Assembly (NCBI RefSeq): GCF_001653235.2
Contig: NC_035796.1
Location: 2,480,001 to 2,544,000, forward strand
Direction: 5' to 3'
Origin: Pochonia chlamydosporia 170
Taxonomy: Eukaryota > Ascomycota > Sordariomycetes > Hypocreales > Clavicipitaceae
Length of the DNA stretch: 64,000 nucleotides
Shown: one piece after another, positions 9,258 through 13,922 of the stretch
Layout of the letters: each line of letters opens with the position of its first letter
Numbering within the stretch: position 1 is the stretch's first letter
Notes under the pieces: model-generated
The model's database searches: none
The model's input: only the letters and a program-made list of their open reading frames with translations
Told to the model about the DNA's origin: nothing
Program-made: the position numbers and the translations under genes

Positions 9258-10115
9258 TCAGGCAACGGCGGGGCGTTTGTTTTCACTGGTGACTTCTCGC
9301 AAAAAGTCATCAACCTGATCTAATCGCCGCATCCTTTGTTCTTCTTCCGGTGTCTGCTTTGGGGTCTCTGGAGTGATTATGTCTAGTATCTGCAGTTCGC
9401 TTAACTTCTCCAGCTCCATCTTGAGTTGCTTAGCTAGAACTATCCATGCCTGAATGTCAATGTAACGGACGCACTGCTGTCGCTCTATCATCAGCTTCTG
9501 CAACTTAGTTAACGGCATCAACTCTCGGATTATGTGTAGTGCCTCTCCACCAGAGGAAACAGAGATTATTAGACTTCGTATGGATTCAAGGCGTGTTGGA
9601 GAGATTGTTTGAAAGAAACTTGTGCTTGGCCTAGGCGTTGTGACAGAATACTGTATGTAGTTGATAGAATAAAAAATAGGCTCGGCCTCGGCGTGTATCC
9701 TTCGACAGGTTTCAATAATAGAGAGAACCGATAAGTGAGGAGAAGTTCGGTGGCTTGCTGGATACCATTTTAGTTGTACTTTGGGTGACTTGATGCGGAG
9801 AACCTCCTCATAAATTCGAAGTCGAAGCTCAATTGGAAGCCTAAAAAGTATACACTGGGCCTGTTCGTCATATAATGACCCATGATTTTTAAGGAATATT
9901 GGAAATTTGTAGTTGTGACGCCCTGGTTCTGGTAGGACCGTGCGACGCGTATTCTCTCTACCATTTATCTGCAATGCGAACTTGCCACTGCAGTAGAGGC
10001 CTAGAATCGGACGAATAGCCTCATCAGCGTGTTCTTGATGGGACTCTTCGAGTTCCACTATTTCCCAATCACCATCATTGCATTTGTCGATTTTGGACCC
10101 GTGGTTATCGGACAT
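9258..10115 (-). CDS. Fungal F-box-like / DUF7730-type protein
   Basis: An intronless frame of 285 residues. After an acidic N-terminus, residues about 85-110 read ILFRLPIELRLRIYEEVL, the F-box-like motif that opens many fungal DUF7730 and related proteins. It is followed by the companion segment IIETCRRIHAEAEPIFYSINYIQY. A leucine-rich part (MPLTKLQKLMIERQQ) and a charged C-terminal helix (PEEEQRMRRLDQVDDFL) complete it. These proteins form large, poorly characterised families in accessory regions of fungal genomes. A ubiquitin-adaptor role is possible but unproven. The stop codon lies against a small GC-rich repeat. Confidence 0.7.
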   Translation of the reverse strand: MSDNHGSKIDKCNDGDWEIVELEESHQEHADEAIRPILGLYCSGKFALQINGRENTRRTVLPEPGRHNYKFPIFLKNHGSLYDEQAQCILFRLPIELRLRIYEEVLRIKSPKVQLKWYPASHRTSPHLSVLSIIETCRRIHAEAEPIFYSINYIQYSVTTPRPSTSFFQTISPTRLESIRSLIISVSSGGEALHIIRELMPLTKLQKLMIERQQCVRYIDIQAWIVLAKQLKMELEKLSELQILDIITPETPKQTPEEEQRMRRLDQVDDFLREVTSENKRPAVA

Positions 10116-12077
10116 TCTGGGTAATACAACTCGTGACTTATCTACTAGGTGATAAAATTATCGTTAACGTAAACCTCCGAATAGAATAAACCCAAAGCTG
10201 CAATTTGCTCGACAATAGCAAAAACTTACCCCTGGTTGTATTATTTAAACTTTTCTTCGCATGTGACACGTATCTAGAGCACTGGGATCCTAGTTGGCGA
10301 TTTAGGCGTTGTGAAGAAAACTGACTGGAAAAGCTTGCTTTTTATGCGAATAGTAATGGATATCACTAGCAATATATTTAGGCAGCCAGCATCTTAATAA
10401 ATCGCGCGTTATTAGCGGGGTAATTCAAGTTGGCTGTGTGGATGAATACTCGCCAATAACTTACTGTCGCCAAACAGGTCTGCAAACCTGCATCGGACTC
10501 AAGTTCTCCGAACCCAGGATCATCATCTAACTTGCAATCTGTGGCGGCAGCTTTGCTCAGGCCATTCTTTGGAGTAGAAGGCCGCTCGCCTCTACCTCTG
10601 TTATAGCTGCTAATAGGCAGGCATCATAAGCAACACCCTTCTTGTGGTCCAAGTGCATAATAACACTGTGCTATGAAAATGAATTGGAGATTGAATAAGA
10701 TAAAATAGGCTGTTGAAACCTTATCATAATAACTCAACTAACAGTATTCATCACCCTGGAACTCTTTGACCTGTAGCTGACAAGCAGCTTCCCAGAAACG
10801 CCACCTCTCTCGTATATTTCTTTCCAACCCGACTAGCCTTTGCGCTCCGTCACTTTTCACTACTTCTGGCAATTGACAGACACAAATCTGACGTCGTCAG
10901 ATAAACGCACCCCTCCTTTCATTTCCCCCCTTCCTACAGACACTTCCTGCCGAACAGACCCGCCGCAGCTATTGCCTTCCGCTTTGAAAGAGAAGTCACA
11001 TCTGGTAAATGGAGCGTCTATACCAACCTTTGCGTCTGCACAGAGTTTGCCAGTAACTCCTGACAATCCTTCACAAAATCTCTGCCATTTCCCTGGGACT
11101 AGGACTTGGATCAAGACGTCTTTAGGGTACTATGTCTCGGGGCATTACCTTACTAGCATTAATGCTTGCGGTGCACAGTATATTTGTTAAGAGGACTATA
11201 GGTAGTTCTTTAGTAGTTGGGCGGGATTGTTGTATAATGTGCGTCTGCAATAAAGTGCTACAAAATCTAAGATATAGCAAAAGTACCTGCAAAGAAGAAA
11301 TCTTCTTAATTGCTTTCTTTCTGCCTTAATAAAACGAAATATCTAAAGATACTCTTATCTTAGAGTAGTACTACTACCTTCAGGCTTGCTAATTTTACGT
11401 GTGACTTGCCTCCAGGATGGAGCTACCAGCCTGGAGGCAAATACCACCGACTTTTGCCTAGCTAGCAGGTTTACTATACTAGTTCCAGACTAGATAGGAT
11501 TCTATGCTATTTGCTTCCAGGCATTACAACCTAGCTTGGAGTTAATATTGCGCCTATTTGTCCCGGTTAAGCAATACAATTTCCATCTCCAGGCTTAATA
11601 ATATTCTAGCATATTTACCTCCAGGCTTGGCAGTTAAGCCTGGAGGTAAATTGTGCCTTATTTAGGCTAGTCTGGCAGTAGAACTGCTCTCCTACCGGCC
11701 CAATAAATTATTAAGACATTTAACTCCAGGCTAAGATAGCAAGCCTGGAGCTCTATTACATATAAAGTTATCTAGTCTGGAGCTAGGGAGAGGGCAGAAG
11801 ATAGTAACACCTAATCTTAAAATTGCAGTTTAGGTAATAGCGGATAACAAATGTGCGCGATAGAACTTGTCCTCTACCACAATGCGATACGTTCCGTCTC
11901 ACGAGATATCTAGCTACGGGTAACGGCAATTGTTAGTCGTAGCACGTAACAACCCGCATGTCAGCAACGGACAAACAGAAGCGGGGTTTGTACTCTATTG
12001 TCTAGATTAGAATTAACGCAACCTGGCAACGTTTTGACTTGGCAATTTCCATCAATCTCACGTAGCCGCAGCATCGC
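10116..12077. other. AT-rich gene-free interval with hairpins
   Basis: No credible coding region; short frames at 10840-11190 and 11132-11329 lack codon structure. The interval is AT-rich from about 11200 and contains the CCTCCAGGC hairpin cluster at 11406-11750. Degenerate transposon sequence is likely but no terminal repeats or transposase fragments could be identified. Confidence 0.5.
11406..11750. repeat. Cluster of CCTCCAGGC hairpins
   Basis: Three perfect inverted repeats share the same core. Arms 11406-11416 and 11430-11440 are 11 bp (TTGCCTCCAGG). Arms 11613-11628 and 11636-11651 are 16 bp (ATTTACCTCCAGGCTT) around a 7-nt loop. Arms 11724-11732 and 11742-11750 are 9 bp (CTCCAGGCT). 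Further half-copies lie between (TCTCCAGGCTTAATA near 11586, GCTTCCAGGC near 11513). Such short structured repeats resemble MITE remnants. Confidence 0.6.
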
Positions 12078-13922
12078 ATGGTCTCAGGGCCAATGGATGC
12101 GAATGGACCATCTACCCGTCGATGGCTGGTAGCGACCATACACCCTTCAAACCGCAAACGGGCATGGAGCCCCAAAGTTCGGACTGGATGCAAGACATGC
12201 AGGTCAGTCATAGCCCCCAAGGCTTTTTAAAGCTAAGCTAACAAGTTGACAGAGGTTAGCTCCGACTCCAGCTTCTTTTACCGGCAATAGCCACAAAGGG
12301 CAATGCTAACTTGGACATGGAACAGTTCGACGGGTGAAATGCGATGAAGCCAGGCCAGTCTGCAGACGATGCGAGTTCACACACCAACTCCCAGAGAGCC
12401 AAGGCACTAACCAAGACAATGGATAGGCTCATCATCTGGTCGGCAGTGCGATGGCTACGAATCGTTCTTGAAACAGGCCAACTCTTTAGCCGTGATCCGC
12501 ATCGCAACAACCATGGGCCATGGACACCAAGAGTCACGATCCCTGCAGTTCTTTCTTGAACAGACCCTTGTACAGTTCCAGACGTATTTTCCAGATAGCG
12601 TATGGGAGACGTATATGCTGCGCCGGGCCAGCTCGGAGGGTTGCATCCGGCACGCACTCATAGCTTTGTCGGCATTCCACGAACATTTTGTGCTTGGCCA
12701 TGTGGAGGACAATGTTTTTGCTTTGCGACAGTACAATTTAGCGATTCAAGGGCTTACGGGTGATGATCGGCAACCCACGCCACAAACGTCGCTACTCTCT
12801 TGTTTGATCTTTATATACATTGAGGTTTGGTTCCCGCTGCCATAGTATGAGGCAAGCTAACACATTTAGACCCTTCGAGGACACTACGCAAACATATTTA
12901 GCCTGTTCAAAAGTGGCTGTAAAATACTCCAGGAATTAGAGCAGTCTCAGCAGGGCTGTGCCAGTAAAACGGGAGAAGCTATATGGAAACCCAAGGTACA
13001 AGTTGACGACATAACTCATCAAGGTAAAGCGTGCTTCTATCGCCTTGGGGTGCAAATATTGCTAGTACGTCTCTCCATGCCCGTCTTAACAGATCTCTAG
13101 CCTACAAACTGCTAACGTGGTTCCTGTTAGTTCCAAGGCGACATCGTGCCCGGCATTCCACCAGCGTCTATCCTAGCGTATCTAAAACCGACTCTTCAAT
13201 CCTCAAACGGAACCGAATTCAAGTCATTCTCCGAGGCGAAAGAATCTGTCCAGGACCTATACCTCCAACAGTTTGAGATTGTCATGATGAACGCTGCCGA
13301 ACACGCGGCATTTGCCCAAAAACTACGAAAATGGTATCGAAGTTTCCAAGAGCTTATTGCTTCAAAAGAGTCCATTTCAGCCTTGAGCGTAGCCGATAAG
13401 AGGACGATTGCACTGTTAGAAGTTCACCGACAAGACATTGCGCTGAATCTAAAAGTGGTCACCCCAGGGACTGGCGAGTACGGCCGCAACCGGATGAAAT
13501 GGGATGCGCATGTCGACGACTTTAGCAGAATGGTTGACAACGCCGCCATCGCTTTGGGATCTGATGATTTCACTTCCCGGGGCAAACACCAGTTCCATTT
13601 GCATTTTGGTGTCACTTCCATTCTAGAATCAGTTACTAGACGGTGTCGAGACCCATCTGTTCGGCGCAGAGCCCTGGCATTGATGACTGCAAGGCCGGTG
13701 CAGGAAGGGATAATGAGCTCAGATCTAGCGGTCAGGACTTTGCGCCGCCTTGTTACGTTGGAAGAGGGCTCGATGATTGTTAGAACGTGTGAGGACGTGC
13801 CGGAGGAGGCAAGGGTGGTCTCCTCGGATTTTGGGGTGAGTCCTTGCGGTACACAGGTTATGGTTCGATTTGGGTTCAGGTACGGGTCTTTTGAGGAGAC
13901 TTTCGAGACTTCGCCATTCTAA
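12078..13922 (+). CDS. Zn2Cys6 transcription factor with fungal-specific C-terminal domain
   Basis: Proposed exons are 12078..12202, 12253..12254, 12326..12370, 12427..12824, 12870..13064 and 13131..13922, giving 518 residues. Residues 38-65 form a canonical binuclear zinc cluster with cysteines at 38, 41, 48, 55, 58 and 65 (spacing 2-6-6-2-6), preceded by a basic stretch (NRKRAWSPKVRTG) and followed by DGYES. The rest is the helical fungal-specific region (LEQTLVQFQTYFP, then CIRHALIALSAFHEHFV and LLSCLIFIYIETLRGHYA) found in small Zn2Cys6 regulators. It should be nuclear and DNA-binding; the target genes cannot be inferred. The second exon is only AG, and intron 3 starts with GC; both are required for the cluster to be in frame. 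If these splices do not occur the gene is a pseudogene. Confidence 0.75.
12253..12254 (+). other. Putative 2-nt microexon (AG) in zinc-cluster gene
   Basis: It lies between intron 12203-12252 (donor GTCAGT, branch GCTAAC, acceptor GACAG) and intron 12255-12325 (donor GTTAGC, branch TGCTAAC, acceptor AACAG). Including AG turns TGC-AG plus TT-CGA into codons for C-R-V-R-R-V-K-C, the expected zinc-cluster core. Skipping it frameshifts into a stop codon within about eight codons. Confidence 0.6.
12371..12426 (+). other. Putative GC-AG intron in zinc-cluster gene
   Basis: The donor is GCGAGT after CGA-T, with CTAAC at 12407-12411 and acceptor GATAG. Splicing gives CRRC-SSSGRQ-CDGY with canonical six-residue spacing. 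A GT donor four bases further on (12375) gives the wrong frame with this acceptor, and gives an 11-residue cysteine loop if spliced to 12416. Confidence 0.6.

Follow-up and report, generated by a model that had tools for sequence, protein, structure and literature searches.

A probable two-nucleotide exon within the zinc-cluster coding sequence of four paralogous genes of Pochonia chlamydosporia

The window, that is the whole 64,000-nt stretch of Pochonia chlamydosporia 170 DNA that was analysed, contains a gene for a zinc-cluster transcription factor (Table 1). With the two bases of exon 2 kept, the zinc cluster of the protein reads CKTCRVRRVKCDEARPVCRRCSSSGRQC; its six cysteines have the canonical Zn2Cys6 spacing 2-6-6-2-6 and the protein matches the Zn_clus profile (PF00172) with 35.1 bits (cut-off 21). 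The protein sequence also matches clusters of solved structure, among them PPR1 (1pyi, E 2.7e-5) and GAL4 (1d66, E 0.011). Its score with Fungal_trans_2 (PF11951) is 17.6 bits, under the cut-off of 21, and that of a paralogue in the same genome (L012) is 24.9 bits. An exon 5 ending at 12995, which gives a protein of 495 aa, was replaced by one ending at 13064 (518 aa) after comparison with L012; the homologue search and the Pfam comparison of alternative readings for the window gene used the 495-aa version. Intron 3 has a GC donor, at a codon where L012 and another paralogue (L014) have a GT-AG intron. A GC donor is also seen in a further locus (L016), there at the common intron position.

Table 1. 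Features of the zinc-cluster gene (positions are those of the window)
Feature	Position	Strand	Remarks
Whole coding region	12078..13922	+	518-aa Zn2Cys6 transcription factor, six exons; ATG at 12078 to stop codon ending at 13922
Exon 1	12078..12202	+	Start codon to Cys2; ends TGCAG, phase 2 in Arg codon; based on in-frame ATG, RKRAWSPKVRTGCKTC
Intron 1, 50 bp	12203..12252	+	GTCAGT...CTAAC (12238-12242)...TGACAG
Exon 2, putative 2-nt microexon AG	12253..12254	+	Base 3 of Arg codon and base 1 of Val codon, in C-R-V-R-R-V-K-C
Intron 2, 71 bp	12255..12325	+	GTTAGC...CTAAC (12306-12310)...GAACAG
Exon 3	12326..12370	+	Remainder of Val codon, Cys3, Cys4, first base of Cys5 codon
Intron 3, 56 bp, GC-AG	12371..12426	+	GCGAGT...CTAAC...GATAG; GT-AG at same codon in L012 and L014
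Exon 4	12427..12824	+	SSSGRQCDGY to IFIYIE
Intron 4, 45 bp	12825..12869	+	
Exon 5	12870..13064	+	End set by comparison with paralogue L012
Intron 5, 66 bp	13065..13130	+	GTACGT...GTTAG
Exon 6	13131..13922	+	Runs to stop codon

The original prediction placed a two-base exon between two short introns inside the cluster, and its donors, acceptors, retained AG and intron lengths all agree exactly with the sequence. Each intron has its own CTAAC branch site, as had been claimed, with the branch adenosine 11 nt (intron 1) and 16 nt (intron 2) from the intron end. Retention of AG gives the reading CKTCRVRRVKC, which contains the predicted C-R-V-R-R-V-K-C, and joining 12202 directly to 12326 produces the anticipated frameshift and early stop (CKTCSSTGEMR*). 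The six-cysteine spacing had been ascribed to AG alone; the spacing is indeed obtained, but the GC-AG intron 3 has to be removed as well. When single GT-AG or GC-AG introns with a donor anywhere between 12150 and 12325 were considered, with intron 3 removed, 20 left the reading open and every one of these loses a cysteine or the frame. The two bases are thus needed for the reading frame, and the 2-nt exon is the only parse found that uses canonical signals and would leave the zinc cluster intact. The Pfam score was dropped as an arbiter between readings, since one alternative reading that lacks Cys2 still scores 28.3 bits with Zn_clus, over the cut-off of 21. Nothing in this argument relies on the folding of the two-intron region in the window.

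The same messenger could also arise from one GT-AC intron (12203-12323), in which case the AG of the acceptor would stay in the mRNA and the arrangement AG|AG|GT would be a coincidence. For the window gene this reading yields an identical mRNA and protein, so that the cDNA proposed in support of the original prediction, TGCAG-AG-TTCGACGG, is not decisive here: it cannot separate an AG exon from a kept acceptor AG. The paralogues can do so, as their two bases differ (GA, GA and AA).

The layout was surveyed with a parser that requires 30 nt between Cys1 and Cys3 in the mRNA, applied to 109 loci of the same genome (overlapping ones included). Twelve clusters are intronless, 17 have one intron at 14 nt, counted from the beginning of the Cys1 codon, which is the position of intron 1 in the window gene, and one has a single intron at 7. 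Introns at both 14 and 16, enclosing a 2-nt exon, occur in four genes, which are the window gene (AG), L012 on contig C2 (GA), L014/L011 (GA) and L018/L017 (AA). For each of the four the parser allows a single two-intron parse and none with one intron, and both introns of that parse have a canonical donor and acceptor as well as a branch site. The three paralogues agree with the window gene in the length of the exon and its codon position and vary in its bases and in intron length; without the microexon, their reading meets a stop no more than eight codons after Cys2. The flanking introns measure 50 to 128 nt and have good donors and branch sites of the form CTAAC, CTAAT or CTGAC. Low-scoring two-intron parses at three other loci (L032, L037 and L065) were set aside, as a one-intron parse exists at each.

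A GT-AC-type reading does open the cluster in the three paralogues (CKVRRIKC, CKARRVKC and CKARRIKC). However, the single introns of the four genes would then end in AC, TC, CC and CC, never in AG, and it is for this reason that a single non-canonical intron is rejected, whereas the two-intron parse is canonical and has branch sites in all four. The total intervening lengths of 121, 121, 153 and 230 nt also exceed the median of 71 nt for single introns (n=17), although two of them fall within the single-intron range of 55 to 134 nt. We therefore regard one non-canonical intron as very unlikely.

The recurrence in four genes also bears on the reading of the window gene as a decaying pseudogene, in which a 2-nt deletion beside a single intron would have destroyed the frame. 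The GC donor of intron 3 and the identity of only about 35% to the nearest relatives could be taken as signs of decay. However, the window gene is open for 518 codons and the same layout is found in three diverged paralogues, the other exons of which are long open frames. Four identical independent lesions are not credible, and decay is in our judgement highly improbable.

How readily such a layout appears by chance was gauged from 1500 dinucleotide shuffles per locus, made from the intervening DNA of the four genes, in which two-intron parses with an inner exon of up to 12 nt were sought and scored with a simple scheme devised for this analysis. Some two-intron parse was present in 404, 497, 1023 and 1031 of 1500 shuffles (27 to 69%), and one at the exact place and of the exact length in 176, 68, 32 and 241 (2 to 16%). 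Some one-intron parse was present in 191, 248, 401 and 227 of the 1500. No shuffle at any of the four loci (0/1500 at each) contained a two-intron parse scoring as high as the real one. A loose two-intron pattern alone would prove little; the weight lies in the quality of the signals and in their recurrence in four genes.

A second and slightly different arrangement was found in five genes with introns at 11 and 14, which enclose a 3-nt exon that splits the Cys2 codon (L022 and L027 TCG, L024 and L029 CAA, L026 CAG). Three of these five genes allow more than one two-intron parse (2, 5 and 2), of which the highest-scoring is reported. The five form one clade in both trees described below, though each tree comes with a warning about long branches in that part. 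The intron at 14 is thus present in both microexon classes, with the second intron on one side of it or the other. Counts taken from the best 120 of the 196 matches of L027 show that the best 11 are all non-intact, that 6 of the next 14 are intact (four of them from Trichoderma and Stachybotrys) and that 63 of the following 91 are intact; the 6 of 14 indicate that gene finders do not always fail on the 3-nt class. The motif CxxWIRR[IV]KC, with Trp in place of Cys-Lys, is found in 10 of 281 proteins (P0186, P0188, P0190, P0194, P0196, P0199, P0200, P0203, P0206 and P0210), including models from Colletotrichum, Monosporascus and Truncatella. This is the remnant that would be expected of a skipped 3-nt exon, and it would be an even more direct sign than any given by the 2-nt class.

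Across all nine microexon loci, no parse as a stwintron was obtained at any in-frame offset. The removal of the whole segment with nothing kept, either as a stwintron or through a zero-length recursive splice site, has a precedent in the nested short introns and consecutive splicing typical of some other fungi, according to the accessible text of PMC9024468. However, in all four 2-nt genes keeping nothing leads to a stop in the cluster, and the two bases must be retained. The probability left for this reading is close to negligible.

Evidence from other species comes from deposited proteins, from which the gene structure of orthologues is deduced and which may be broken for other reasons. An intact six-cysteine cluster is present in none of the best 11 matches of the window protein and in 48 of the other 54. 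Similarly, among the best 34 new matches of L012 only two are intact (P0086 from Sarocladium and P0090 from Xylariales), against 52 of the other 66. The L012 protein was also scanned once each against viral_contigs and genome_contigs, and no relative was found in either.

A quick tree of 66 proteins, hand-chosen from 165, and 19 Pochonia genes places the four 2-nt genes in one clade (SH-aLRT 100) together with 39 non-intact and 2 intact deposited models; outside this clade are 5 non-intact and 20 intact models. The corresponding Fisher p of 2.4e-10 for intactness against clade membership is descriptive only, because the rows are related and were picked by hand. P0011 and P0105, non-intact models outside the clade in the quick tree, are its next relatives (support 80 and 89/83). 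A more careful tree of 43 rows, made up of 31 deposited proteins and 12 Pochonia genes, took L012 as its deposited model and had the cluster cut off wherever its end was recognisable. Here the four 2-nt genes again fall in one clade, of 21 rows and with support of 100/100, which contains 15 of the 17 non-intact and 2 of the 14 intact models. The genera in the 2-nt clade include Fusarium, Trichoderma, Metarhizium, Beauveria and Sporothrix, and we take the subfamily to occur in Hypocreales and Ophiostomatales.

The non-intact models take several forms, as some are mis-joined at the microexon spot, some start downstream and some are fragments, and only mis-joining at the microexon spot speaks directly for the microexon. 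At least five non-intact models of the clade (P0010 and P0072-P0075) are either fragmentary or begin well downstream, and these are uninformative on this spot. A direct sign of mis-joining is seen in the deposited model of L012 itself (P0066; L012 matches a deposited Pochonia chlamydosporia 170 protein at 100%), which begins MQFGESNVTKDVQLARDVRSKTGRICDGY. To obtain its first 38 residues letter by letter, it suffices to start at an out-of-frame ATG in ACATGCAA and to join donor 1 with acceptor 2, which takes out 123 bp; the start of P0066 is hence the microexon-skipped reading, in line with the expectation in the original prediction that annotation would start such a protein elsewhere or call a frameshift. 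Six further models (M. rileyi, M. robertsii, Lecanicillium, Beauveria and two from Sporothrix) contain GCxTCN, which is as expected if donor 1 after TGCAA were used and joined to a wrong next exon. Where models of the clade retain R[RK][VI]KC, the residue before it is F, L, I, V, S or T, which would fit a codon split N|TT or N|CT and is a weak sign, as I and V are usual there anyway. The two intact models of the clade, P0086 and P0090, may be either correct models of the same structure or genes in which one intron was lost. A further model, P0005 of Fusarium poae, has about 150 extra residues before half a cluster, perhaps from a neighbouring gene that annotation joined to it here.

We consider it highly likely that the two bases at 12253-12254 are a real exon inside the Zn2Cys6 domain, that the introns on either side are removed one after the other and that the arrangement originated once in this subfamily. 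Recognition would be by intron definition, acting on two short introns that each possess a donor, branch site and acceptor of their own. This mode suits introns that are 50 to 128 nt long and have good donors and branch sites, and its efficiency is independent of exon length according to the accessible part of a review (PMC8624252). Only two bases separate the 3' site of intron 1 from the 5' site of intron 2, which leaves hardly any room for both to be occupied, and introns 1 and 2 would hence be removed consecutively. In the mature messenger the two bases would then complete the Lys or Arg codon after Cys2 and open the next codon, and skipping them would cause a frameshift and a stop inside the cluster.

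Both microexon classes and 17 of the 18 single-intron loci have the intron at 14, so the second intron is most likely a later gain. This would have happened once at 16, in the ancestor of the 2-nt subfamily, where a family with one intron after Cys2 would have received a second intron 2 nt downstream, and most likely once at 11 in the 3-nt genes. Tandem duplication as the source of the second intron was rejected, as introns 1 and 2 have no clear resemblance and the evidence is at most suggestive. Their local similarity was reached by 21, 160, 52 and 359 of 500 shuffles in the window gene, L012, L014 and L018, respectively, and by 258, 261, 89, 109 and 33 of 500 in the five 3-nt genes. A different route, in which a deletion is rescued by a cryptic exon, is suggested in the accessible text of PMC12940212; with 121 to 230 nt of intron in total, against the median of 71, two full introns are a better fit than such a deletion and cryptic exon.

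Compatible with this explanation is a real microexon that is regulated, so that skipping or retention would yield a form without the DNA-binding domain and act as an on/off switch. In all four genes skipping leads to a stop within the cluster, and the zinc-cluster gene Xlr2 of Trichoderma virens has a microexon switched by glucose, as described in the available portion of PMC11121469. However, good donor and branch-site matches in both introns of all four genes speak for constitutive inclusion, and regulation is thus rather unlikely. A broader proposal, and a speculative one of similarly low probability, is that the codons after Cys2 are a hotspot where an ancestral intron twice gained a close neighbour (in the 2-nt and 3-nt subfamilies), and that inclusion of the 2-nt exon would be an RNA-level on/off switch for DNA binding, kept across several orders and overlooked as gene finders usually miss the microexon.

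Ultra-short exons as such are already known. One close likeness in fungi is the 1-nt exon of Fusarium CYP621A, confirmed by SRA reads in what is available of PMC12940212; it also lies in a conserved motif, is needed for phase and has wrong deposited models. That exon is conserved in orthologues, and here conservation is seen in paralogues and, for other species, through deposited proteins. CYP621A further differs in being a P450 gene with a 1-nt exon in one subfamily of one genus, as far as the same text goes, whereas the present case is a 2-nt exon of a transcription factor, read from DNA alone, in four paralogues and probably several genera. Xlr2, in the same portion of PMC11121469 as above, resembles the genes described here in having a microexon inside the Zn2Cys6 cluster that annotation missed in orthologues and the absence of which removes the DNA-binding domain. 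Its microexon, in contrast, has 20 nt, encodes PCRRCE with two cysteines and belongs to a PF04082-type protein, whereas the present one has 2 nt, lies after Cys2 and is found among PF11951-type relatives. In Arabidopsis a 1-nt exon of APC11 has been confirmed from RNA, and the accessible text of PMC4674806 suggests intron definition with stepwise removal; APC11 and VPS55 (PMC4674806, PMC8831610, likewise as far as accessible) are alike in their ultra-short exons and unlike in being other genes, of plants, with 1-nt exons. The [D1,2] stwintrons of Hypoxylaceae (PMC9024468, in the same part as before) share two short nested introns, consecutive splicing and a frameshift when the outer sites are joined. 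There, however, the whole segment is removed, whereas here two bases must stay. In the open-licence literature, no paper was found that describes a fungal gene with a 2-nt exon, or microexons in zinc-cluster genes besides Xlr2.

Few exons of 1 to 3 nt are known, and they mark the smallest size at which the spliceosome can handle a sequence as an exon. Four genes of one genome allow a comparison in which position and length are kept and bases and intron lengths vary, and the distribution is family-wide and apparently old. Most deposited models of this regulator subfamily, from Fusarium, Trichoderma, Metarhizium, Beauveria, Sporothrix and others, are without an intact DNA-binding domain, which the proteins themselves probably have; surveys would count such members as regulators without a zinc cluster.

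Some further observations concern the neighbourhood of the gene in the window. Upstream of it, at 11378-11786, there are several inverted repeats around CTCCAGGCTTG, the best of which has perfect arms of 16 nt (11613-11628 and 11636-11651). A genome search with the 161-bp piece 11560-11720 returns only itself and its own inverted arm. A frame of 724 aa at 16127-18301 matches Zn_clus with 21.3 bits at residues 352-391, in the central part of the protein, and on the minus strand, at 9261-10157, there is a frame of 299 aa with a DUF7730 match of 40.3 bits.
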